DNA from: Ignavibacteriaceae bacterium
GTDB taxonomy: Bacteria > Bacteroidota > Ignavibacteria > Ignavibacteriales > Ignavibacteriaceae
Direction: 5' to 3'
Length of the DNA: 64,000 nucleotides
Assembly (NCBI GenBank): GCA_008933765.1
Contig: WBUK01000016.1
Span: 1-64,000 of the forward strand
Positions 39,074-51,222 of the stretch are shown here, piece by piece. The translations under genes and the position numbers were made by a program. Below the pieces are notes generated by a model. That model ran no database searches. It had not been told where the DNA came from and was given only the letters and a program-made list of their open reading frames with translations. The stretch's first letter is position 1. Each line of letters starts with the position of its first letter.

Positions 39074-39916
39074 ATGGCAAAAGGTAGAAAAGAAAAGGAT
39101 TTTTACAAATATATAATAGTCAATAATAAAGCCAAAATAACGCACTCGGACTATTATAAATCCCCAGCAAAGGCTTTTTTGGAATATACAGTGCTCGCAC
39201 ATGCTGCAGTCGAATATTGTATAAATAATTTCCCAAGAACTAAACATGCTCGATTTAATTCTGCAGGTGAAGCGAACCTTCGCCAAATTATTACCGCCTT
39301 TTTACCTGCTGTGATGGGACATTTTGAAACATATCAAAAAATGTTGTTTGCAGGTGTTTTTGATTTTACTATCCATTTAAAATTTTTTGATGTGAGGGAT
39401 TTTTTTAAAAGGCTTGAAAAACAAAATTTTGCTGTTGATGGTGGGATATTAGCAGCATACAGAGGAGAAAATGTAACTTCTGTGGGCGTTATTTTAGCTG
39501 ATAATCTTCCGGGGTGGCATAATCCGGTAATTGTTAATAACTACTTTAAAGCATTTGGTTTTTCAATAAATTTTTTCGATAAAGATGCCGGCGATAAACT
39601 AAAAATTCTATGGCAATTAAGACATTCAATTGTACACACCGGTTCAACTTTGACTCTTCCCGATTCGTATAAGGTACCAGAATTAAAAAGGTTTAGTGAA
39701 AAGAATTTTACTTTTGACAATAGATTTATAAGTGAAGTGGCAAGAAAGTTTCATCCTCTGGTTGATAATTCTACTAAAAGGATTGAAGAAAGTTTTCGAA
39801 AAACTATGAAAGACTCGTTAGAACCGGGAGTATTAGATAAAATCAATAAATTTTTTACAGTTGAATCACCAAATAATTCATGGTTTAATCGATCTTCTGA
39901 ATTAGATGTACAATGA
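39074..39916 (+). CDS. HEPN-like protein, putative ribonuclease
   Basis: A 280-residue cytosolic protein rich in Asn, Lys, Phe and Ile, from a visibly more AT-rich stretch than its neighbours. Near residue 183 it has QLRHSIVHTGSTLTLPD, where Arg183-x4-His188 matches the R-x4-6-H active motif of HEPN ribonucleases, followed by the Gly-x-Thr seen in the RiboL-PSP-type branch. The N-terminal helical part (AFLEYTVLAHAAVEYCINNF) fits the rest of an all-alpha fold. HEPN proteins are common in toxins and phage defence; no antitoxin or defence partner is adjacent. It converges on the cyclase gene. Family assignment is by motif only. Confidence 0.5.
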   Translation: MAKGRKEKDFYKYIIVNNKAKITHSDYYKSPAKAFLEYTVLAHAAVEYCINNFPRTKHARFNSAGEANLRQIITAFLPAVMGHFETYQKMLFAGVFDFTIHLKFFDVRDFFKRLEKQNFAVDGGILAAYRGENVTSVGVILADNLPGWHNPVIVNNYFKAFGFSINFFDKDAGDKLKILWQLRHSIVHTGSTLTLPDSYKVPELKRFSEKNFTFDNRFISEVARKFHPLVDNSTKRIEESFRKTMKDSLEPGVLDKINKFFTVESPNNSWFNRSSELDVQ

Positions 39917-40125: not shown

Positions 40126-40737
40126 CTATTTCGTAGTTTTCAGAGTTAGGCGGCGGTATTTTACTAAGTTGCCGATGCCTCTGAATTTATCTTCGTAAAC
40201 TTTTCCTGTGTGTTCAAATTCGTCTAAGTTTTTTTCTGTTAGTTTATCGAAGAATTTTTCGCTGATAATGATGTTGTTAGGTCCACTTCTGTTCAACAAA
40301 CGGGAAGTAAGATCGATATCCAGGCCGTAGTAATCGAGGCGGTTTTGGATGAAACTTATCGGGTAAATATTCGAACAGTGGTGCACGGCAGCTTTTGTTT
40401 GCAGTACTAAATCGGGGTATTTATCGAGGAAGATGGTCATTCCGGTATATAACAGTTCTAAAATTCTGTCATAGTTTTCATCATCCATCGAGGCATCGGG
40501 GATGAAAATCATAAGTTCGTCACCGATTATTTTGACGAGGTTATTGTTGAAGATGGGGGAGATTTCCGCAATGGGTCTTAATGTGTTATAAAGCCGTATT
40601 ATCCATTGCTGGTAACTGCGATATTTAATTTCGGTGGAATTGACTACATCGACAAAAATGCAGACGCCCGAAATTGTTTCCAGTTTTTTAAAACTTCTTT
40701 CGGAAATCTCCAATTTACTATTTTTATAAAAAATCAT
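40126..40737 (-). CDS. Stand-alone class III nucleotidyl cyclase domain protein
   Basis: A 203-residue protein consisting of one cyclase homology domain. Metal-binding aspartates are Asp30 (CIFVDVVNST) and Asp73 (KIIGDELMIF); base-selecting residues fit Lys69 and Asp135, as in adenylate cyclases, and Arg146 fits the transition-state arginine. The usual Asn in VNxAxR is Asp142 here (YYGLDIDLTSRL). It may make cAMP or another cyclic nucleotide. It has no sensor domain. ATG 40737 with GGAAG upstream is preferred over GTG 40755. Single-domain cyclases also occur in Pycsar phage defence, but no membrane or TIR effector is beside it. Confidence 0.7.
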   Translation of the reverse strand: MIFYKNSKLEISERSFKKLETISGVCIFVDVVNSTEIKYRSYQQWIIRLYNTLRPIAEISPIFNNNLVKIIGDELMIFIPDASMDDENYDRILELLYTGMTIFLDKYPDLVLQTKAAVHHCSNIYPISFIQNRLDYYGLDIDLTSRLLNRSGPNNIIISEKFFDKLTEKNLDEFEHTGKVYEDKFRGIGNLVKYRRLTLKTTK

Positions 40738-41070
40738 ACGAAAACTTCCATGCACTATTTTCTTTATGATTCCATTTAATAATTAAGCAGAAAGAATTGT
40801 CGCAACAGAAAAAATTCCATTAAATGGAGAAAAGAACACCTTCAAACAGTAAGAATCAATTTTATAGACTTCTGTGAAGAAAGAAAAGATTCATTCAAAA
40901 CGCTTTAACATCTCCTATACCGGCATTAATCAGCCGTTGAACGCAAAGTTGTTACAAATTGCAGCGTTAAAATTTCATCTTTATTTCTTAAGTCCGGTTA
41001 AAAAGAGGGGGTGTATATCCCCGAAAAAATTCACAACTTATAGTTAATGCTTAGATCTCACGGTTTTTAA

Positions 41071-41271: not shown

Positions 41272-41387
41272 GTGGCGGAGATTCTTCAAAAAATACTACA
41301 GACGAAAAAAACTCAATTTAGTTGTTAATGCTTTTCCGTACAGAGATGCACCTTAGGTAACAGACTTACACATGTAAACTATTCCAC

Positions 41388-41418
41388 TTGAGGGGGAAAA
41401 GCAACATCACTAATTTTG
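41388..41418 (+). promoter_or_regulatory. Candidate promoter of the virion gene cluster
   Basis: TTG at 41388-41390, 20 nt, TAATTTTG at 41411-41418: an exact TTG-N20-TAnnTTTG match, 195 bp upstream of the first virion-cluster gene. Host-type promoter rather than a phage-specific one, as far as can be seen. Confidence 0.55.
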
Positions 41419-41612
41419 CAGCGTAAAAGTTCGAAAGAAAAACAACACGGTTCGCACTATTAAAAAAAGCGGAATCAAAATCCGGAGGTATTTTTTAAGC
41501 ATAAAAATTGAAGAAACGCATAATGAAGAAAAGCATTATGGAAAGTTTTTCGATATTAAAAAGCAACAAAAAGCAGAACGAAAATTAAACAGAGCACAAG
41601 TTTGGGGAAAAG

Positions 41613-42020
41613 ATGAACGAAGAAGAAATGAAACAAATTTTTGATGAGTTAATAAAAGCTGCTTCTGAGGCACGGGCTGAAGAGATTCGGGCGGATATTG
41701 ACTCTACATTCGGGGCGGAAGACGCTTCGAACCTATTGATGGGGTGGGAGAAAGAAAATCCCGGTTACTTCGAAGTGCTGGCGAACGACCCCCCGGCTTT
41801 GGCAAATCAGTTGAAAAAATTCCGGCAAACAACCGAACTTCGCTCTGAATTGGAAAAAATGAGAAAAGAAACGGGGGAAGAAATCATAAAAAAAGTTAAA
41901 AACACACTGAAAAAAGTCGAAAAACTGCGCGCACCGGTTGAAACAGGTAACAGAAGCCGGAACACCGGCACGGGAGACACACGGCTTTTAAGAAATATTA
42001 TCAATTCATTAACCAATTAA
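41613..42020 (+). CDS. Small charged protein before the capsid gene, possible scaffold
   Basis: A 135-residue, mostly helical and highly charged protein (EEEMKQIFDELIKAASEARAEEIRAD) with a Lys/Glu-rich coiled stretch (ELEKMRKETGEEIIKKVKN) and a basic end. It lies directly before the major capsid-like gene, where podoviruses and siphoviruses usually encode a scaffold or assembly protein; that and its charge are the only reasons for the suggestion. No family is recognised. An internal GWEKENPGYFEVLANDPPALANQL segment is compact and could be a small folded part. The final codons are in a 33-bp tandem duplication. Confidence 0.45.
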   Translation: MNEEEMKQIFDELIKAASEARAEEIRADIDSTFGAEDASNLLMGWEKENPGYFEVLANDPPALANQLKKFRQTTELRSELEKMRKETGEEIIKKVKNTLKKVEKLRAPVETGNRSRNTGTGDTRLLRNIINSLTN

Positions 42021-42054
42021 ATAAGAAATATTATCAATTCATTAACCAATTAAA
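41989..42054 (+). repeat. Perfect 33-bp tandem duplication before the capsid gene
   Basis: Two identical adjacent 33-bp copies (41989-42021 and 42022-42054) start TAAGAAATATTATCAATTCA. The first contains the last codons and stop of the 41613 gene; the second ends 9 bp before the capsid ATG. Confidence 0.97.
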
Positions 42055-42063
42055 GAGGAAAAA

Positions 42064-43254
42064 ATGGCTTACGATTCAATCACACAGGGGGTGGTTTCTT
42101 CCAACAATATGAACGCTGCAAATGCAGTGCCGGATGTGGAGAAGATACTTTATCTGATGAAACCCTACCAAACACCACTTATGCAGTATCTCTGGTTTTC
42201 CGGCAGAAAAAGCAAGGAGGTTACAAGTCCTTTCGCAAAATTTTCATGGTTCGAGAGTGAACTATATCCGCACCAAACTGCAACAAAAATGCCGATCGAC
42301 ACAACCGGGTCGCCGGCTATATTGTCGTTGAATAGTTCGAATTGTGTTAACATCGGAATATTCAATTTAGACGACATCGTACTGATAGAAGAGACGGATC
42401 AGATGGCGTTCGTACAGTCAAAATCTAATTCGTTGGTGCAGCTTGGTGCGATAGACGGCACTTCATCGTTATCATCATTGGAAGGGGAAAGCGTATATCT
42501 GAAAATCATTGGTTCGCGGAACACTGAATATTCAGGAGTAAGAGCTGCAGTAAGCGTAAAAGAAACGGAGAAGTTCAATTACCTGAATATTTTCAGTGAA
42601 AGTGTAGCCACAACGGTCAGGCACCAGGCGGGTGAAAGTTATACGGATGGTGTTGACCATGCAGCACTTGTAGCAAAAAAAATTGAAGAGATGAAACTTC
42701 AGGCAGAGCGCTACTTCTTGTTTGCGCCCAATCAGGGGTACGCAACTTCGGGGAACTACAGAACCACCTGGGGGCACGGCTTTTTAGGAAGGATTCAGAC
42801 GAATGTAAATTCATACTCTCCGAGCCTTACCGAGGAGATTTTTGATGATCATTTAAGGAGCGTTTTTGAGAAAGGTTCCAACAGAAAAATCCATTTATGC
42901 GGAAGCGGTCAGTTAACTGAGATAAACAAGTTCGTTAAGGAAAGATATGAGTTAAACCCAAACCCGGTTGTATCAATCTACGGGGTTAATGTCAGGGAAT
43001 ATCTTACACCCTTCGGAACTGTTGACATAATCTGGAATCCGGTGATGGACGGCAAATTCACAGATTACGGTTTCACAATCGATGCTGAAAAGATCAGACT
43101 TCGTTATATGGCGAATGATAAGAAGGGAAGCCGTCGGTTCAGAATAGAAGAGGGGGTAGAAACACCCGGAGTTGACGGAACCACTACGAAGATACTGATG
43201 GATCTCGGAATCGAAATCCACAACGAAGAATGTCACGGCATACTTAAGAAATAG
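42064..43254 (+). CDS. Major capsid protein, SU10/DUF5309-like
   Basis: A 396-residue protein with the layout of the SU10-type major capsid family. The N-terminus VEKILYLMKPYQTPLMQYLWF is followed by a conserved block KFSWFESELYP, then a middle ERYFLFAPNQ...RTTWGHGFLG, and the C-terminal block YGVNVREYLTPFGTVDIIWNPVM and LDLGIEIHNEECHGIL-like end. It would form the icosahedral shell by the HK97 fold. GAGGAAAA precedes the ATG. Assignment is from pattern memory of the family; no search could be run. Confidence 0.7.
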   Translation: MAYDSITQGVVSSNNMNAANAVPDVEKILYLMKPYQTPLMQYLWFSGRKSKEVTSPFAKFSWFESELYPHQTATKMPIDTTGSPAILSLNSSNCVNIGIFNLDDIVLIEETDQMAFVQSKSNSLVQLGAIDGTSSLSSLEGESVYLKIIGSRNTEYSGVRAAVSVKETEKFNYLNIFSESVATTVRHQAGESYTDGVDHAALVAKKIEEMKLQAERYFLFAPNQGYATSGNYRTTWGHGFLGRIQTNVNSYSPSLTEEIFDDHLRSVFEKGSNRKIHLCGSGQLTEINKFVKERYELNPNPVVSIYGVNVREYLTPFGTVDIIWNPVMDGKFTDYGFTIDAEKIRLRYMANDKKGSRRFRIEEGVETPGVDGTTTKILMDLGIEIHNEECHGILKK

Positions 43255-43263
43255 GAGTTGTGG

Positions 43264-43629
43264 ATGAAATTCATATCAAAGTATCGCCGGTATTCTATAA
43301 CACTACAGGGGCAGAAATTTGCCTTCACGCCGGAGGAAGCAGCGGGAGTTTACACCACTTCCGATCAGGCTGAAATAGCGCTCTTAAGGGAAGCCGCAGC
43401 ATTCGGACGCGACTACCACCAAATCGAAGGTTCAGCGGGTAGCACACCGAAAAAGGCAACCGAATATTACGGAAAAGAAGGCGGAGAAAATTCAGGTTCA
43501 GCGGGTAGCACACCGAAAAGGGCAACCGCTGAAAGAGTTACGGGAGAAACAGACGCCGGTTCAAATTCATCCGTAATAAACAAAGGCACGGGTGAAACCA
43601 AACCGATAATCAGAGGAAAGAAAAAATGA
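43264..43629 (+). CDS. Small virion protein, possible head-completion protein, with in-frame duplication
   Basis: A 121-residue protein. Residues 1-55 (MKFISKYRRYSITLQGQKF and FTPEEAAGVYTTSDQAEIALLR) recall short head-tail connector proteins that begin with a beta hairpin and a 'TTD' turn. The remainder is Gly/Ser/Thr-rich and disordered and contains SAGSTPK(K/R)AT twice, from a 66-bp in-frame duplication (43429-43462 and 43495-43528). ATG 43264 with GGAG six bases upstream is better than TTG 43258. Its stop overlaps the next start (ATGA). Confidence 0.5.
   Translation: MKFISKYRRYSITLQGQKFAFTPEEAAGVYTTSDQAEIALLREAAAFGRDYHQIEGSAGSTPKKATEYYGKEGGENSGSAGSTPKRATAERVTGETDAGSNSSVINKGTGETKPIIRGKKK
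43429..43528 (+). repeat. 34-bp in-frame direct repeat, 66-bp period
   Basis: 43429-43462 recurs at 43495-43528 with one base change (Lys to Arg). Sixty-six is a multiple of three, so the reading frame is preserved. Confidence 0.92.
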
Positions 43630-44252
43630 ACACGGCGAATCTGACAGCCAGAATCCGCAGCCTTTTGGATGAAAGAGAGGCCGGTTTTTGGAGTGACGAA
43701 GAGATAACCGCTGCATTGAACGAGGCGCAAACTGAAGTGATAAACTACGCATTGTTCGTTTTTACAAACGGGGGGCTTGCTTCAGGGCTCCCGTTTGTTC
43801 TTACGCCTTTTGAGACCGAAGAGAGGTTCACATCAGTTACGGGTTCAGAAGTGCCGCTTCCTGAGGATCTGCTCTACATATTTGAGGTCAAGTGCGCCAC
43901 TTCACAAAATGGTGAAGAAAAGCCTGTACCGATTTGGAGTATGTCGTTGACGCGTTACGCCAGAGAGCATAATTCACTGCTAAAATCGGGGGCAGGAAGC
44001 ATGTTTTGTCATGTTGCCGGAAGCGAGCTTGTGTTCAGTTCACCATTGAACAGCGGCAGTTACACGATTGCGTACTTAAGGAAACCGGACGAAATAACAG
44101 AAGTGCAGGGGAGTGAACTTCCGGAAAATTGTTCCGGAGCTCTCGTAGCTTACGCAACAGCGCTGCTGTTAGAAAAGGATAAGCAACACGATGAGTCGGC
44201 AAATTTTTTCAGGCTCTATACGATGAAAGTTGAGCAACTTGCCGGCTTATAA
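43626..44252 (+). CDS. Phage head-tail adaptor-like protein
   Basis: A 208-residue protein with the helical start LTARIRSLLDEREAGFWSDEEI followed by TAALNEAQTEVINYAL, the pattern of the neck adaptors that sit on the portal ring (L-x-x-x-R-x-LLD...WSD-x-EI...LN-x-AQ). A beta-rich middle (PVPIWSMSLTRYAREHN, GSELVFSSPLNSGSYTIAYLRKP) and a C-terminal helix complete the fold. Its ATG overlaps the stop of the previous gene. In podoviruses this protein joins the portal to the nozzle; no portal gene is present here. Confidence 0.6.
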   Translation: MNTANLTARIRSLLDEREAGFWSDEEITAALNEAQTEVINYALFVFTNGGLASGLPFVLTPFETEERFTSVTGSEVPLPEDLLYIFEVKCATSQNGEEKPVPIWSMSLTRYAREHNSLLKSGAGSMFCHVAGSELVFSSPLNSGSYTIAYLRKPDEITEVQGSELPENCSGALVAYATALLLEKDKQHDESANFFRLYTMKVEQLAGL

Positions 44253-44318
44253 AACACAAAAATCGCAAAACATTAAATTATTGGAATTTAGAACCACCAA
44301 AAAAAGAGAGGGGGAAAT

Positions 44319-45044
44319 ATGTCTGCAACACTTGCCGAACTCCGGGATCAGATAGTAATTGACGCAAATGTGCACGGCAATCCGCAGTTTCCGGTAGCAC
44401 GGTTGAACCGAATAATCAACTTAGCACAAAGATCGATACAAACGGAACTTAACGGGCTTGGTATGAAAAAATGGGAAGCTGTAACAACGCTTTCAACACA
44501 ATCCCGTGAGGAAGAATTTGTAGGAAAACCGATTCTGGGCATTCCAATTGATGGGGTACAATTCCCGCAAATGTTGGAAAGCCCGCGCTCGATAATATTC
44601 ATTGAATGCAGCGACGGGACATCGCACGGGCTTGCCTACGAGGTTGATCTTGATATGTTCAAGGACCAGCTTGAAAACACCTGGCTTGCCCCCTCGGTCT
44701 CATCCGCGGTATTTATGCGTTTAGCCAATAAAATTTTATTTGCACCGGCAACCGTTACATCACTTAAGGCGTACTACTACAAGGCAGTGCCTGACTTAGT
44801 TAACGACGGTGATTTCACCACAATTCCGGTAGAATTTGAGGAATATGTGATTAAAAAGGCGGTTGCCGAGATCGACGGGATACTCGGAAATCTTGAGGCT
44901 AAACAGCTTAAAACAAAGCAAATCCAGAACGAGATTTCATCGGCTTACCAGAAATTTTTGGAAAAGCAGGGTGAAAAAAGGAGAATAACCCAGGAAAACA
45001 CGCGCGGCGTGCCCGATAACATTAGATATAACATGGGTTATTGA
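44319..45044 (+). CDS. Second head-tail adaptor-like protein
   Basis: A 241-residue protein similar in layout to the previous gene: LAELRDQIVIDANVHG, then FPVARLNRIINLAQRSIQTEL, a beta-rich centre (IIFIECSDGTSHGLAYEVD, RLANKILFAPATVTSLKAYYYKA) and a long C-terminal helix (VIKKAVAEIDGILGNLEAKQ). The AQR helix pattern again suggests a neck or connector protein. A good GAGGGGG ribosome-binding site precedes the ATG. The stop (TGA 45042-45044) overlaps a TTG that is in frame with the next gene. Confidence 0.5.
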   Translation: MSATLAELRDQIVIDANVHGNPQFPVARLNRIINLAQRSIQTELNGLGMKKWEAVTTLSTQSREEEFVGKPILGIPIDGVQFPQMLESPRSIIFIECSDGTSHGLAYEVDLDMFKDQLENTWLAPSVSSAVFMRLANKILFAPATVTSLKAYYYKAVPDLVNDGDFTTIPVEFEEYVIKKAVAEIDGILGNLEAKQLKTKQIQNEISSAYQKFLEKQGEKRRITQENTRGVPDNIRYNMGY

Positions 45045-45064
45045 TAATATGGGTTATTGATAAT
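45033..45064 (+). repeat. 16-bp tandem duplication at the adaptor gene end
   Basis: ATGGGTTATTGATAAT at 45033-45048 is repeated at once at 45049-45064. The first copy holds the last codons and stop of the adaptor gene. Confidence 0.95.
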
Positions 45065-45136
45065 GAACACAACGACCTTACTCAGCAAAAAAGGTACTGC
45101 GGCACTAAATTATGCAATAAAGGCAGGTTGCAGATA

Positions 45137-47353
45137 ATGGATACCACAATTTTCCACGGTGAAGTTTCGGGAATTGATGAAATCACAGCGCCACTTCTTC
45201 TGCCGGAAGGTATTGTGAGTGAAATGATCAACCTGCACTTAGACAGAAGCGGAGAAAGCGGTTTCCCCACCCGTCGGGGCAACTGGAGTAATCATTCCAC
45301 CACACCTTTCAGCGTGATTGATGGTGTTACATCGTTTGTTTCCGATTCAGACACACAATATTATGCAATATTTTCCGAGGGTAAAATTGCAGTTTCAGAG
45401 GATGGCAAAGGGGAGTGGCAAACCATAGCCGAAGGTTTAGAGATAAGCGCAATTACCGGGTCGCTTTCGCTTGGAATGGGCAGCACACTACTTCACAGCG
45501 GGCACGATTCGGTAGTAATTTCGGGCGAAGGGGTGGCAGCAGTCACCCCACTTTCTATCCCGCAGCCGGAAATCGCCGGAGGTTCTCCAATTTGTGCCGT
45601 ACACCATGATACAGGTGGCGAAATAGGCGCCGGGTGGTACAATTATGTGTTGGTTTACGAATCAGAAACGGGCGATCGCTCAAATCCATCGCAACCTTTC
45701 ACCGCTTATAAAGCTGCGGAATCAGGATCAACAGGCTTTTCGGGGAGTACAAACCGCGTTGAAATTACAAACATACCGGTTCCGAGTGACCCCCGGGTAA
45801 AAAAGAAGCGACTGTATCGTACTAAAGGGGTAATAACCTCCACTCTTTCGCCCTCGCCCTTTATTTATTATGAGGTGGCGGTTCTATCACCGGGGAGGAC
45901 CACCTTTACGGATAAAACCGCTGATGCGGATCTTTCAGTCAGACGGTTTGCCTTATTCACATCTTCACCAAAGGGAAAGTGTTGGTGCACGGCGCAGGGG
46001 CGGTTGTTTAGCGGCTCGGTTAAGGTGCCTGCAGTCAACTTTTTTGCACCTCCATTTTCAAACGACGGAGTTAGCACCAAAATATTCCGCGGCACCGGGT
46101 TTGCCTCCGGCGGGTCGTTAGGAAATGCGTCGGCTTACAAGTACCGCTTGGTGTATATTGATGAGAACGGCACCACTTCGGCTATGATCGAAACTCCGCA
46201 GATCGATACTCCGGGAGATAATTTTGAACTGTTGGCAAAAATTAAATTAGACTACCTGCCCTATCTGCCCTCGGATGAAAAATTAAGAATCACGGAAAAA
46301 AGATTATACCGCACAAAGCGAAACGGTTCGGTTTTTTACCGTCACCCTGTCGAGTTGTCATTTAGTTTACTAAGTTATGAGGATACAGTTGCAGATACCG
46401 CACTTCTTTCGGAAACATTTCCTGCAAGTGTTGAGCCGCGTGGCTATCCGGCGTCTTTGGTTTTTTCCGAGACCGGGCGACATTTCACATTTCCTCCTGA
46501 AAACATAATTTCTTTGCCGGGTGGTGATGAAGAGGAAATAATGAGCATTCACGAGGAAAACGACGGTGTGCTGATATTGACGCAAAAGGCTGTTTATAAG
46601 CTGTTTACGCAGGGTGATCCGTTGACCTGGCGGTTAATTACGCTAATTGAGGGGGTGGGGCAAACACTTGAAAATGGTGTACTCAGAGTTCCGTACGGAG
46701 TAATTTTTTATTCAGGCGGAGCGGTTTACCGGTTTCAAAAAGGTGAACTGCAGAACATCGGTGAGGGGGTTGCCAAAACGCTTTCGTTGGTTCAAAGGTT
46801 TTGGAGCCCGGCACGCTTTTCGGTGCTGAGGTGGTGCGGTTTCCCGGTTAAATTGATCAACAATTCAAGGTTGTTGCTGATATTTGATGAAAAAAACGGT
46901 GCATGGTACAAGTTCACGCACCCGGGGCTTGCCGGTGTTGCAAGCAGTGGCGGAACTGATGAAAGGCTGTTGACATACGCCGGCGGAAATATTCTGAAAT
47001 ACTCACATCAGGGTGAGGGACCTGATGTGATTGGTGAATTGGACAGCGATATTGAGGTTAAGCTTATAACGCGCGAATATGCAGCTGCGGGGTTTATCTG
47101 GCAGCGATTGCGCAAGTTGCGGCTTTATCTTAAAACACTTTCGGGAGGTGTTACAGTGAAACTAAGAACTACGGCGGGCGAGATAGTTTTTTCCCACACT
47201 TTTACCGAAGCAAAGGAAGTGTTGCGGATTAACCCCATTGAATCTGCGGATGGGATGAAAGCCATTTGCCGAACGGTTTCAATTGAAATTACGGGGACAG
47301 GTTTAAAAACGCTTCAGGGAATAAAGTTGGAGAAACGGAGTTTAAGAAATTGA
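45137..47353 (+). CDS. Large beta-rich virion protein, tail nozzle/DNA-stabilisation-like
   Basis: A 738-residue, beta-strand-rich protein. It begins EVSGIDEITAPLLLPEGIVS and reaches GFPTRRGNW, then repeats of strand-turn units (FSEGKIAVSEDGKGEWQTIA) and twice a block ending in KKKRLYRTKG and EKRLYRTKRNG. Such 'R-N-W-x' starts and YRT repeats are common in podovirus nozzle or packaged-DNA-stabilisation proteins placed after the adaptors. ATG 45137 is chosen; the frame also extends to TTG 45041, which overlaps the previous stop and would add 32 residues. Function is inferred from position and layout only. Confidence 0.5.
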   Translation: MDTTIFHGEVSGIDEITAPLLLPEGIVSEMINLHLDRSGESGFPTRRGNWSNHSTTPFSVIDGVTSFVSDSDTQYYAIFSEGKIAVSEDGKGEWQTIAEGLEISAITGSLSLGMGSTLLHSGHDSVVISGEGVAAVTPLSIPQPEIAGGSPICAVHHDTGGEIGAGWYNYVLVYESETGDRSNPSQPFTAYKAAESGSTGFSGSTNRVEITNIPVPSDPRVKKKRLYRTKGVITSTLSPSPFIYYEVAVLSPGRTTFTDKTADADLSVRRFALFTSSPKGKCWCTAQGRLFSGSVKVPAVNFFAPPFSNDGVSTKIFRGTGFASGGSLGNASAYKYRLVYIDENGTTSAMIETPQIDTPGDNFELLAKIKLDYLPYLPSDEKLRITEKRLYRTKRNGSVFYRHPVELSFSLLSYEDTVADTALLSETFPASVEPRGYPASLVFSETGRHFTFPPENIISLPGGDEEEIMSIHEENDGVLILTQKAVYKLFTQGDPLTWRLITLIEGVGQTLENGVLRVPYGVIFYSGGAVYRFQKGELQNIGEGVAKTLSLVQRFWSPARFSVLRWCGFPVKLINNSRLLLIFDEKNGAWYKFTHPGLAGVASSGGTDERLLTYAGGNILKYSHQGEGPDVIGELDSDIEVKLITREYAAAGFIWQRLRKLRLYLKTLSGGVTVKLRTTAGEIVFSHTFTEAKEVLRINPIESADGMKAICRTVSIEITGTGLKTLQGIKLEKRSLRN

Positions 47354-47661
47354 ATAAATTGAACAAATTGAATAAAGAAGAGGCACGGGGGTTATTTTCA
47401 CCGTTGCCGGCGGTTGGCGAAAGGCTGCCGGAAAAAGGCAGTATGCCCGACGGAAGTTTTTATCTGTTAAGAAAAACCGGACTGAAGATTTTGTTTCTTT
47501 TCATCGGGGGTGAAAGGCTGCCGGTGGCAACACTTCCCGCGGTTTTGGAACGGCTCCCCACCGTTGAAGGCTTGCCCGAGTTAACGACAGTGTTCGTTAA
47601 AAACGGCAGCGCAGTTGAGCAGCATATTTTAATCAGAAGTGTCTGGCAAAAAATTAGTTAG
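47350..47661 (+). CDS. Small protein, unknown function
   Basis: A 103-residue frame starting at TTG 47350, which overlaps the previous stop (TTGA). The first nine codons come from a 9-bp tandem repeat (TTGAAYAAA three times), so each of three in-frame TTGs could be a start. The body contains related Pro/Leu motifs (PAVGERLP, PAVLERLP, TVEGLPE) that look like internal duplication. No family is recognised. It might be a small virion accessory protein; it might also not be translated. Confidence 0.4.
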   Translation: MNKLNKLNKEEARGLFSPLPAVGERLPEKGSMPDGSFYLLRKTGLKILFLFIGGERLPVATLPAVLERLPTVEGLPELTTVFVKNGSAVEQHILIRSVWQKIS

Positions 47662-47788
47662 CGGAAGCGGCTGTAAGAGGGCTGGATTATGTTGAAAGTT
47701 AAGGCAGAATAGATACAGGGTGGAGGGAAAATGTTTATCCCATGGTTTAAAACACTGGAGTAATATGAAACACAGGGGAAATATGATA

Positions 47789-47910
47789 AGAGATTTAAAA
47801 ATAAGGAGGAGAAATGCCAGAGTTTGGGGAGAGAAAAATTATAAACAAGGCAGACGGTGGTAACACCTAAGGTGATGATGAGAGATTTAAAAATAAGGAG
47901 GAGAAATGCC
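47789..47910 (+). repeat. Duplicated ribosome-binding site and start of the 47906 gene
   Basis: 30 bp ending in AAGGAGGAGAAATGCC at 47789-47818 recur exactly at 47881-47910, a 92-bp period, with similarity five bases further upstream. The left copy opens an 18-codon frame (47814-47870, MPEFGERKIINKADGGNT); the right copy starts the real gene, which also begins MPE. Confidence 0.95.
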
Positions 47911-48607
47911 TGAAGTTAATGAGACTTACGGTAAAATAATGGAGGAATTGCTGCGCTCGGCGCTGGGGAGTGTATTCCCGGGGGTTGTGCCTGCAGGAAC
48001 CGAAAAGCTTTTTGGCGGAAAAGATATTATGCCGCAATGGTTAGCGGGTGTTTCGGATTACAAAAACATGCTGAAAGAAACCGCAAATTCCGGAAGCAAA
48101 GCGCTAAAGGATCAGCAGGCGCAGGGTTTGAAGCAGATTGAGCGCTCCGGTGGTGAAGCTTTGGAAAATCTGAGGGATACGATGGTTGCTGCCGGGCTTA
48201 ATCGCTCGGGAGTTTCTGCAAATGCACAGAACAAACTGTTCGAAAAAGAAACCGACGCAAAAAATGATTTGGTAACCCGAATTGCCGCTTTGAATGAAGA
48301 AAACAGAAAAGATGCGCTCGGCAAACTTCTGGGGATTGAGCAAACTGCCGCTTCTCTGGGAATAAGCGACAGAGAGGCAGGTAACAGACTGCTTTCGATG
48401 ATTGGCGACCTGAAACTTTCCGGGGAGAGAAACAGAATGCTGAGGGATGAACTTGACTTAAAAAAGAGGCAGTATGAAGAGGGTAAAACCGGGTTTGGAG
48501 GCGTTATTGGCTCGATTTTGGGGAGCCTGCTTGGTGTTGCCTCCGGAGGGCTTGCACTCGGAGCCGGCGATAAACTTAGTGATATGATCTTTGGGGGAAA
48601 TAGTTAG
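47906..48607 (+). CDS. Ejection/internal virion protein-like
   Basis: A 233-residue protein. The middle is a long amphipathic helix rich in Ala, Asn, Glu and Lys (LRDTMVAAGLNRSGVSANAQ followed by ...AALNEENRKDALG), the kind seen in internal virion and DNA-ejection proteins, where the R-S-G-x-x-x-N-A motif recurs. The C-terminus is a Gly-rich hydrophobic stretch (GFGGVIGSILGSLLGVASGG) that could insert into a membrane. It has the strongest ribosome-binding site of the cluster (AAGGAGGAG). Such proteins form a channel for DNA passage. Assignment is by pattern and position. Confidence 0.5.
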   Translation: MPEVNETYGKIMEELLRSALGSVFPGVVPAGTEKLFGGKDIMPQWLAGVSDYKNMLKETANSGSKALKDQQAQGLKQIERSGGEALENLRDTMVAAGLNRSGVSANAQNKLFEKETDAKNDLVTRIAALNEENRKDALGKLLGIEQTAASLGISDREAGNRLLSMIGDLKLSGERNRMLRDELDLKKRQYEEGKTGFGGVIGSILGSLLGVASGGLALGAGDKLSDMIFGGNS

Positions 48608-48622
48608 AAAGGGAAAAAACAA

Positions 48623-48922
48623 ATGGAGGTATTATTCAGTTTATTGGGTGTATGGTATTTAGCGCTGTTTGGTGCGATCACCAGCATAATAACAGAGGCT
48701 TCTTATTCCATAGTGAGGGGCTACATTCGCAAGCGTTGGCTTGTGATGGTGGTGGCGCTGTTGGTAACGATTCTGGGAGATGTTACAACGGGCAAACTGA
48801 GCACATCGGTGCTTAGTGTACTGTTGGTTACATCTTTTTCAATATTATTTTACACATACATCGGCGAATACACGATCAAAAAAATATTTGAATATCTGCG
48901 GGGTGAAAGACGAATTGAGTAG
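48623..48922 (+). CDS. Holin-like membrane protein
   Basis: A 99-residue protein with three hydrophobic segments (LFSLLGVWYLALFGAITSII, WLVMVVALLVTILGDV, STSVLSVLLVTSFSILFYTY) and a charged C-terminus (KKIFEYLRGERRIE). Size, topology and location before the spanin-like and amidase genes suggest a holin that opens the inner membrane to release the amidase. No holin family is recognised. Its stop lies in the first copy of a threefold repeat (48913-49100). Confidence 0.55.
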   Translation: MEVLFSLLGVWYLALFGAITSIITEASYSIVRGYIRKRWLVMVVALLVTILGDVTTGKLSTSVLSVLLVTSFSILFYTYIGEYTIKKIFEYLRGERRIE

Positions 48923-49100
48923 AGGGATTACTATTTATCCGGGTGCCTTTTTGGAATCGCTGTTTAGTGAAATGAACAATTGGTTCATTATTTGTCCGGG
49001 TGTTTTATTGAAACCACGCTTAGGAGGAGGAATTGAACAGAGGGATCATCATGCTACTGAGTGCCTTTTTGAAACCACGCTTAGGGGGCGGAATTGAGTA
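48913..49100 (+). repeat. About 60-bp imperfect repeat, three copies plus start, between holin and spanin-like genes
   Basis: Copies begin near 48913, 48970 and 49031, and a fourth start at 49092 opens the next gene. Shared words are AATTGAGTAGAG/AATTGAACAGAG, CCGGGTGCCTTTTTG and GAAACCACGCTTAGG. In the ancestral form TTGAGTAGA probably served at once as stop of the holin gene (TAG) and start of the next (TTG). Confidence 0.8.
48915..49097 (+). other. 60-codon bridging frame between holin and spanin-like genes
   Basis: TTG at 48915 overlaps the holin stop (TTGAGTAG). The frame runs 60 codons through the repeats and stops at TGA 49095-49097, overlapping the TTG start at 49094 (TTGA). A second in-repeat frame from TTG 49033 (22 codons, after a strong TTAGGAGGAGG) ends at 49101. 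They may be relics of the duplication or relay ribosomes; a functional peptide is not supported. Confidence 0.4.
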
Positions 49101-49720
49101 GAGATTTCATCTTTGCCGTAGTTTTGTTGTTATCCGGTGCGGTGCTTGGCGGAATATTTTACGGGAAGTTTTTGTGCAAGCCTCCGCCAAACTCAGGAAG
49201 TGAAGTCGTGGTACAGGAAAGAGTCATAATCAAACGAGATACGATAACAACAGAAAAAATCAGCACCATAGAGCGCATAAAACCGGTTTTTTCAACCGAC
49301 ACTATGTCGGTTAATGCTCAATCAGATTCAACACTAACCGAAGTGGTAAGACTACCGGTTCCGGTGCAGAATTCTGATTCAGCGACAAGCGAAAAACCTG
49401 TACCAACAACGGAAAAGGTACCCGGGCAAACGATGTTTACAGCGTATGAAGCAAAAGCAGATACGGTAATGTTTGATTCATTTCTGCGTTTATCCGTTAA
49501 GTTTACATCCTCAATTCCGCTTGATACCGCCGGATATTTCAGCATAAAAGCCACTCTGAGCGAAAGGGAGATTAAGGAAAAGGAGATACGGTACATTGAG
49601 AAAGAAGAGGGTTTCTTTAACAAATGGCTGCACTTCGGTTTGGTGATTGCACCCGGATACGGGATAGTTGAAAAGAAAGGTGATTTTTTCATCGGTATGG
49701 GTATTATGATAGGGTTGTGA
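49094..49720 (+). CDS. Membrane-anchored lysis accessory protein, spanin-like
   Basis: A 208-residue protein with one N-terminal membrane helix (FIFAVVLLLSGAVLGGIFYG) and a periplasmic domain: a Thr/Glu-rich stretch with RDTITTEKISTIERIK, then a beta-rich part (FLRLSVKFTSSIPLDTAGYF), and at the end a second weakly hydrophobic segment (HFGLVIAPGYGIV). One-pass proteins of this design between holin and endolysin genes are often i-spanin-like in Bacteroidota phages. It starts at TTG 49094 with GGGGGCGG upstream. Family not recognised with certainty. Confidence 0.4.
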   Translation: MSRDFIFAVVLLLSGAVLGGIFYGKFLCKPPPNSGSEVVVQERVIIKRDTITTEKISTIERIKPVFSTDTMSVNAQSDSTLTEVVRLPVPVQNSDSATSEKPVPTTEKVPGQTMFTAYEAKADTVMFDSFLRLSVKFTSSIPLDTAGYFSIKATLSEREIKEKEIRYIEKEEGFFNKWLHFGLVIAPGYGIVEKKGDFFIGMGIMIGL

Positions 49721-49844
49721 AAAAATCCATTCATCTGCAGTCAAGTTTCCCATTGGAAACGAAAAAGCCCGTTAATTGAAAGGGAGTCAATTTAAGGCGG
49801 CAATAATTAAAATTTATTTAACATATTGAGGGTTATAAGAAACC

Positions 49845-50459
49845 ATGAAAAGAATAGTGAAACATATTAACGAAGGGGAATTTTTGCGGGGTGTTTACCC
49901 TAAACAACAGATTGTATTACACGGCACAGGATCGAGCACGGCCGCAAATGTCGGTGATTGGTGGAACATCCAGAAAGGGGCGATTGCCACTGCCTTTGCG
50001 GTTGATAAAGGAGGTGAACTGATAGAGCTTTTCCCCCCTTGCTATTGGGCATATCACACGGGGAACGGTTCAACTTACGATACCCGAAACATCGGTATAG
50101 AGATCGCCAACGAGGGCTACCTAAAAGAAGCAAACGGCAAATACTATTGGGACGCCTCGGGCAAGTGGGTTGATTACCGTGGTGAGGTGTTTGATAACGG
50201 TAAGTTATGGCGCGGCTTCAGGTATTTTGCAGCCTTCACAGAGGCTCAATACGATACCGTTGCAGAAATTTGTGCTGAAATGTGCAGAAACTTTGATATA
50301 AAACCGGCGGTACTTGAGGGGTTTGACTACAGTGTTTCGTATCTTTCGTACAAAGGAATTGTAAAACACTGCAATGTGTATCCCTCGAAGATGGATGTTA
50401 CGCCCGCGTTTGATATGACAAAATTCAGGAAACTTTTTGAGCAAGAAGTTAAGCAATGA
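49845..50459 (+). CDS. N-acetylmuramoyl-L-alanine amidase (Amidase_2), endolysin
   Basis: A 204-residue zinc amidase that cuts the bond between muramic acid and the stem peptide. Zinc ligands fit His26 (QIVLHGTGS), His175 (IVKHCNVYP) and Asp184 (SKMDVTP), with Lys182 as the catalytic lysine; AYHTGNGS and RNIGIEIANEGYL are conserved blocks. No signal peptide, so release would need the holin. The last 23 bp overlap the next gene. Compared with housekeeping amidases it is small and single-domain, as phage endolysins are. Confidence 0.85.
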   Translation: MKRIVKHINEGEFLRGVYPKQQIVLHGTGSSTAANVGDWWNIQKGAIATAFAVDKGGELIELFPPCYWAYHTGNGSTYDTRNIGIEIANEGYLKEANGKYYWDASGKWVDYRGEVFDNGKLWRGFRYFAAFTEAQYDTVAEICAEMCRNFDIKPAVLEGFDYSVSYLSYKGIVKHCNVYPSKMDVTPAFDMTKFRKLFEQEVKQ

Positions 50460-51222
50460 AGAATTAAAAGAGAAACTTGAGTTTCACTATCGTGCATTCG
50501 GGCGGGAGAGCATCTCGCCCGATCCTTTGGAAATTCCTCATCTTTTCACTCACCCGGCGGATATTGAAATAGCGGGCTTTTTTGCGGCAAAGTTTGCTTA
50601 CGGTGCTGTTGCACAAATAATTAAAAATGTGAACGGCTTGCTTCAAAGGTTGGACGATTCCCCGTTCAAAGTGATTCGGGATGATCTGCACCTTGAAGAG
50701 CGGGTGGAAGATTTTTACTACCGTTTTTACTCATCAGTTGATGTAGCCACATTGTTGCTTGCAATGAGGGAAGTGTTGCAGAAATACGGCGGGTTAAAAG
50801 GGCTTTTCATGGAAGGGTTTCTGCCGGAGCGTTCGGTTAAAGAGGGGATACAGCGATTCAGTGAATACTTTCACGCGTTTGCCGAAAGAGAAGGGAGACT
50901 AACGCGAGGCTTCCGGCACTTCTTTCCCGAACCTGAAAAAGGAAGTGCATGCAAGAGAATGAATCTTTTTTTAAGGTGGATGGTCAGAGAGGATGAGCTT
51001 GATTTTGGGTTCTGGAAAGAGATTGGGAAAGAAAATTTGGTTATTCCGCTGGATTTGCACATTGCCCGAATCAGTAAAGAGCTGGGGTTAACTGCACGGA
51101 ACGATTCTTCCTGGCGCACCGCAACCGAAATCACGGATAAATTGCGGGTGTTTGAGCCAAATGACCCCGTTAAATATGACTTTGCACTTTGCCACATCAG
51201 CATGCGGAAAATGAAATTTTGA
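50437..51222 (+). CDS. TIGR02757/DUF2400 family protein
   Basis: A 261-residue cytosolic protein conserved in Bacteroidota and relatives. PDPLEIPHLFTHPADIEIAGF and VIPLDLHIARISKELGLTAR followed by FEPNDPVKYDFALCHISM are its blocks; the last resembles the C-terminal part of HhH-GPD base-excision glycosylases (P-D-DPVKYDFAL), although the catalytic Lys/Asp pair cannot be pointed out. Function unknown. It starts at TTG 50437 inside the amidase gene (23-bp overlap) with AGGAAA upstream. So a conserved cellular gene is translationally coupled to the phage-derived cluster. Confidence 0.75.
   Translation: MSKKLSNEELKEKLEFHYRAFGRESISPDPLEIPHLFTHPADIEIAGFFAAKFAYGAVAQIIKNVNGLLQRLDDSPFKVIRDDLHLEERVEDFYYRFYSSVDVATLLLAMREVLQKYGGLKGLFMEGFLPERSVKEGIQRFSEYFHAFAEREGRLTRGFRHFFPEPEKGSACKRMNLFLRWMVREDELDFGFWKEIGKENLVIPLDLHIARISKELGLTARNDSSWRTATEITDKLRVFEPNDPVKYDFALCHISMRKMKF

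Follow-up and report, generated by a model that had tools for sequence, protein, structure and literature searches.

Capsid and lysis genes in the window

The window, a stretch of 64,000 nucleotides that constitutes contig 7 of the 37-contig Ignavibacteriaceae genome G000, to which named Ignavibacteriaceae and a Chlorobiota MAG stand nearest, carries eleven intact co-directional open reading frames on the + strand at 41,613-50,459 (Table 1). A preliminary description of this DNA had read ten genes here, all in one direction and with intact frames; direction and integrity stand, and the count is corrected to eleven. Its capsid-, adaptor- and amidase-like assignments gain support from Pfam and PHROG, its nozzle- and ejection-like ones from weaker matches, and its holin- and spanin-like ones from hydropathy and position only.

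Table 1. Positions in the window of the predicted cluster features and the cellular gene that follows them
Feature	Position	Strand	Basis
Promoter-like element CTTGAG-N19-AATTTTGCA	41387..41420	+	also at the unlinked portal locus in relatives
g1, 135 aa, before capsid gene, scaffold-like	41613..42020	+	position, no firm family match
g2, major capsid protein, SU10 type	42064..43254	+	PF17236 (SU10_MCP) 3e-39; phrog_1328 4e-25
g3, small head-associated protein, internal repeat	43258..43629	+	phrog_34377 8e-4
g4, head-tail adaptor A	43626..44252	+	PF24175 SU10_adaptor 1.4e-10
g5, head-tail adaptor B	44319..45044	+	PF24175 SU10_adaptor 2e-9
g6, large nozzle-like tail protein	45134..47353	+	phrog_3287 virion structural 5e-5
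g7, small protein	47350..47661	+	47-50% conserved in genus
g8, ejection-like, C-terminal hydrophobic segment	47906..48607	+	phrog_21132 DNA ejection, weak (0.076)
g9, holin-like, three hydrophobic segments	48623..48922	+	hydropathy and position only
g10, spanin/Rz-like, N-terminal membrane segment	49094..49720	+	hydropathy and position only
g11, N-acetylmuramoyl-L-alanine amidase (endolysin), Amidase_2	49845..50459	+	PF01510 7e-14
DUF2400 gene, cellular neighbour, no particle part	50461..51222	+	PF09674 1.8e-76; synteny

Conservation within the genus is 83-84% for the capsid protein, 74-77% for g9, about 60% for g8, 52-63% for g1 (in G001-G003) and 40-42% for g10; the N-terminal 55 residues of g3 are kept in all six genomes that carry the system (see below). 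A nozzle-like role for g6 is suggested by its place in the cluster, its weak matches to phage families and the all-beta content predicted for it; no solved relative of it was found, and its AlphaFold model, of low confidence (pLDDT 51.6), was left out of the fold search. Position and weak matches likewise make a role in ejection probable for g8, which has a hydrophobic stretch at residue 200.

Neither a portal, a large terminase (TerL), an integrase nor any other mobility gene was found in or beside the cluster, nor did a direct repeat of at least 12 bp connect its two flanks, in agreement with the absences listed in the preliminary description. The G+C content of the cluster is 45%, against 41% in the rest of the window, and lies within about 2 standard deviations of host genes. 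On the right, alignment with relatives places the true start of the DUF2400 gene probably at about 50,461. The apparent 23-bp overlap with the cluster is then probably a start-codon artefact, for which reason a fusion of the two was dropped as a candidate. Directly to the left, and not at the corresponding place in relatives, lie a gene with a Pycsar-cyclase match (PADLOC PycC, 1.6e-7; 40126-40755, - strand) and a low-G+C HEPN-like gene (39074-39916, + strand), a pair that may represent a possible anti-phage module. Short tandem duplications, noted previously, sit at gene starts and ends at three sites within the cluster: an exact 33-bp tandem at 41,989-42,054, a duplicated start region at 47,783/47,875 (47783-47924) and three 61-bp copies at 48,912-49,090.

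Unlinked portal and terminase loci and a shared promoter motif

Profile searches for capsid, portal and TerL over one set of 80 Ignavibacteriaceae genomes returned the capsid in six, the portal in the same six and a TerL of one lineage (PF03237; E below 1e-260) again in the same six, with weaker TerL matches in three further genomes of the 80. These carriers represent three genera: the window's own (G000-G003, all four genomes searched) and two others with one genome each (G005 and G027). A class-wide survey for the capsid added one further weak, partial match among 391 genomes. The portal is of P22 type (PF16510, 2.8e-44) and was detected in G003 as a lone gene close to a prophage; after it come two small genes and then tpiA, which also adjoins the portal locus in G001 and G002. 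A search with the terminase family PF03354 gave no match, and TerL and portal queries from the G003 siphophage-like prophage, which are of a different type, gave none in G000.

The three sets of genes lie apart in five of the six carriers. In G000, contig 28 carries the portal and contig 32 a TerS-TerL pair, each surrounded by host genes, so that the packaging genes are indeed present elsewhere in the same genome, as had been proposed from the window. Portal and capsid loci are separated by about 56 kb on one contig in G002 and by about 87 kb in G003, with the host genes fabF, malQ and tpiA in the interval, and TerL is on another contig in both genomes; within the genus, glycoside hydrolase GH2 and aldo-keto reductase genes lie beside the terminase locus. 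The remaining carrier, G005, has the order TerS-TerL-flavin oxidoreductase-portal, with the oxidoreductase at L036:5992-6960, an arrangement that resembles a transitional stage from a phage order to complete separation.

The catalytic motifs of the predicted packaging motor are intact: GYGGARGGAKS (Walker A), DEAT (Walker B) and the nuclease aspartates are invariant in the six genomes, and no solved relative of this TerL was found. The gene before it, read as a small terminase (TerS) because of where it lies and of a single weak match (0.052) to the C-terminal portion of a TerS family, encodes 77-82 residues in five genomes and 152 in G000, where the same start is followed by a C-terminal extension; the true prophage of G003 has a 170-residue gene in this position. 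The TerS-like protein appears to lack a DNA-binding domain: it is predicted to form a two-helix hairpin with a flexible tail (mean pLDDT 73.6), a model that leaves no room for a helix-turn-helix. Small terminases lacking a DNA-binding domain were first shown for RcGTA (PMC6854486) and are reported for known gene-transfer agents (PMC11841831).

In the window's own genome, the portal gene is split by a Mu-like prophage of about 24 kb (contig 28, about 123.5-147.6 kb). We rejected this insert as a component of the system: it encodes its own Mu-type transposase (Mu-transpos_C, 1e-13) and terminase and is bounded by a 5-bp target duplication, CACGC. Since no other disruption was found beside the junctions, the insertion looks recent. 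With its portal interrupted, the sequenced strain probably cannot package DNA and is probably a non-producer, although the assembly is a consensus and part of the population may therefore have an intact portal.

Alignment of upstream regions revealed CTTGAG and, after about 20 bases, AAATTTGCA or AATTTTGCA in front of g1 as well as of the portal gene, a motif that we take to be a form of the Bacteroidota -33/-7 promoter. The copy in the window, TTGAG-N19-AATTTTGCA, begins at 41,388, in line with the host-type promoter of the preliminary description, and 0.03 occurrences are expected by chance per window. A strict pattern, TTGAG-N18-21-AAWTTTGCA, was drawn from the G000-G003 sites and matches those sites by construction; what is informative is that the motif is almost missing from the rest of each genome and that it occurs at two unlinked loci. 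Both matches in G003 and both in G001 fall exactly at the capsid and portal loci, one relative of 4 Mb having the motif at these loci only. G002 has four matches, two of them at the capsid and portal loci, and G000 has three, one at 41,388, its portal carrying a changed copy; in G027 and G005 the strict pattern matches other places. The reversed control pattern gave 0 matches. A relaxed pattern, written after the G027 and G005 sequences had also been inspected, finds eight distinct sites and nothing else in about 400 kb of partly overlapping sequence, each of them immediately before the first gene of a locus (capsid, portal or the TerS of G005). The TerS promoters of G000, G002 and G003 have a looser version outside the strict motif, so that co-regulation of the terminase locus is weakly supported.

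Inheritance and selection

Synteny and dN/dS, two of the checks proposed for the cluster at the outset, both support long-term domestication. In G002 and G003 all eleven genes are present in unchanged order, with the DUF2400 and PP2C genes as shared neighbors; the contig of G001 breaks off within g8, leaving the lysis genes off it. The left neighbour differs in G000, where genes found some 10 kb ahead of the portal locus in G003 precede the capsid cluster, and a rearrangement has therefore occurred. The loci are fixed within the genus, whereas their sites differ across genera: in G027 the surrounding genes are different, the capsid is 69% identical and the other genes 25-41%. The full intact gene set was verified in G003 only, and g6 of G002 has a frameshift (L009 about 6400) that is either a real change or an assembly error.

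Within the genus, strong purifying selection acts on the genes of all three loci. For the pair G002/G003, whose synonymous divergence is near 0.5 (synonymous sites are saturated in most other pairs), dN/dS across 17 genes of the three loci ranges from 0.01 to 0.26, within the range of host genes such as tpiA (0.021) and DUF2400 (0.077). It is 0.016 for the capsid, 0.012 for adaptor B (g5), 0.042 for the amidase (g11), 0.047 for the portal, 0.059 for TerL and 0.074 for TerS, and highest for g10 (0.26) and a small gene beside the portal (0.25); because of the frameshift, g6 of G002 was compared over its first 481 codons.

In the rpoB tree the three carrier genera cluster together, apart from the three non-carriers included. 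The trees of capsid, portal and TerL are concordant for the main groups, though the position of G001 versus G000 differs between rpoB and the TerL or portal trees. That only six of 80 genomes have the system implies that loss or limited acquisition has been common. A siphophage-like prophage of G003 with an SPP1-type portal (L011, L015) encodes a capsid protein 76% identical to the cluster capsid of the genus. In the capsid tree it groups inside the genus, and capsid genes have thus been exchanged with phages at least once. Viral contigs and phage records contained no close relative of the capsid or portal: phage capsids are only 21-24% identical to the cluster capsid, the nearest viral TerL is 54% identical, and the TerL relatives on viral contigs come without the other genes of the system.

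A candidate gene-transfer agent

Taken together, the loci hold tailed-phage structural and packaging genes with no replication, integration or excision genes among them, are flanked by host genes, occupy fixed chromosomal places within the genus and show vertical inheritance and purifying selection. Judged by these sequence features, together with the TerS-like protein and the TerL motifs, the system can be classed as a candidate gene-transfer agent, in line with what the preliminary description had proposed and with the caveat of the interrupted G000 portal. We thus consider it likely that the cluster and two further chromosomal loci, all unlinked, together encode a domesticated short-tailed DNA-packaging particle of this kind, and that the carrier relatives probably make particles that move their host's own DNA. 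With less assurance, we favor the fuller reading that Ignavibacteriaceae have independently evolved a functional agent whose capsid, portal and terminase loci are linked by a host-type promoter, the carrier genera representing different stages of its break-up.

We envisage that the host promoter would switch the loci on together, the first supplying capsid, adaptor, nozzle, ejection and lysis proteins, the second (the portal and two small genes) the portal, and the third, TerS-TerL, the packaging motor. Capsid and portal would assemble, the motor, having no sequence-specific TerS, would load host DNA, holin and amidase would lyse a fraction of the cells, and the particle would hand its DNA to relatives. 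With its genes split over three loci, no particle could carry the complete set in a single fragment. Of the steps in this scheme, delivery is the weakest, since no receptor-binding or fiber gene was identified.

The same gap lends some weight to a different role for a domesticated DNA-packaging particle, namely killing of competitors, as by PBSX of Bacillus subtilis, or a lysis device: the lysis genes are conserved, no receptor or delivery genes were identified, and PBSX, which packages host DNA, reportedly does not inject it (PMC12946183). However, TerS, TerL, portal and ejection-like genes are all conserved as well, and the loci showed no toxin or immunity gene, which makes this role unlikely.

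Less probable still are two readings that retain a phage. A decaying prophage, its parts dispersed by rearrangement, would explain why integrase, repressor and replication genes are missing, and the interrupted portal of G000 and the g6 frameshift of G002 would be its natural marks; yet decay is hard to reconcile with the low dN/dS of 17 genes at three loci, with the same loci and neighbors persisting across species of the genus whose synonymous sites are mostly saturated, or with the concerted presence of all parts in six of 80 genomes, and we regard this explanation as already largely refuted. Nor did a terminase, portal and integrase appear just beyond a prophage boundary around the cluster, which has neither integrase, transposase nor attachment repeats around it as a temperate prophage would. 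A still-infectious phage or satellite with a dispersed genome that moves horizontally could draw on the capsid relative in the G003 siphophage-like prophage, a sign of some exchange with phages, but it is similarly improbable given the conserved chromosomal neighbors, the absence of mobility genes from the loci, the distance of the nearest viral TerL and the lack of close capsid or portal relatives in the viral contigs and phage records.

Among known systems, RcGTA has a tail of siphovirus-like type, and its one main cluster contains both portal and TerL; the Ignavibacteriaceae system differs in its SU10/P22-type head, a probable short tail and unlinked packaging genes. It resembles RcGTA and the RcGTA-like agents of Alphaproteobacteria in being multi-locus and chromosomally conserved with a TerS that lacks a DNA-binding domain (PMC6854486, PMC11841831), and the TerL of these agents is reported to descend from headful-packaging phages (PMC7947584). 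The nearest described analog is FpGTA of Faecalibacterium, which, compared by description, is likewise podovirus-type, with lysis genes, no replication genes and a TerS without an obvious DNA-binding domain, and which its authors called the first podovirus-like gene-transfer agent in 2026 (PMC12946183). Its two operons lie about 125 kb apart (PMC12946183), but packaging and capsid genes share one of them, in contrast to the three places occupied by terminase, portal and capsid here; it also has a baseplate/fiber operon, of which none was found at the Ignavibacteriaceae loci, and belongs to a different phylum. VSH-1 of Brachyspira, from another phylum and again compared by description, has a divided genome with genes at separated loci as here, as far as Stanton et al. 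2009 is cited in PMC11841831. SU10-like podoviruses share the capsid (PF17236) and adaptor (PF24175) families, and the portal is of P22 type, but instead of a contiguous viral genome with replication genes there are three host-flanked loci without phage genome organization. In the literature covered, outside which many subscription papers fall, no gene-transfer agent was reported for Ignavibacteria and none with SU10 components.

Few lineages are known to have gene-transfer agents, and distinguishing these from broken prophages is difficult. In the present case several sequence tests point the same way, and less split and fully split arrangements coexist in one family. If the interpretation as a gene-transfer agent is right, an orphan capsid cluster can lead to its portal and terminase through co-occurrence and a promoter motif, a route by which more such systems may be found, and the natural insertion in the G000 portal offers a ready contrast.
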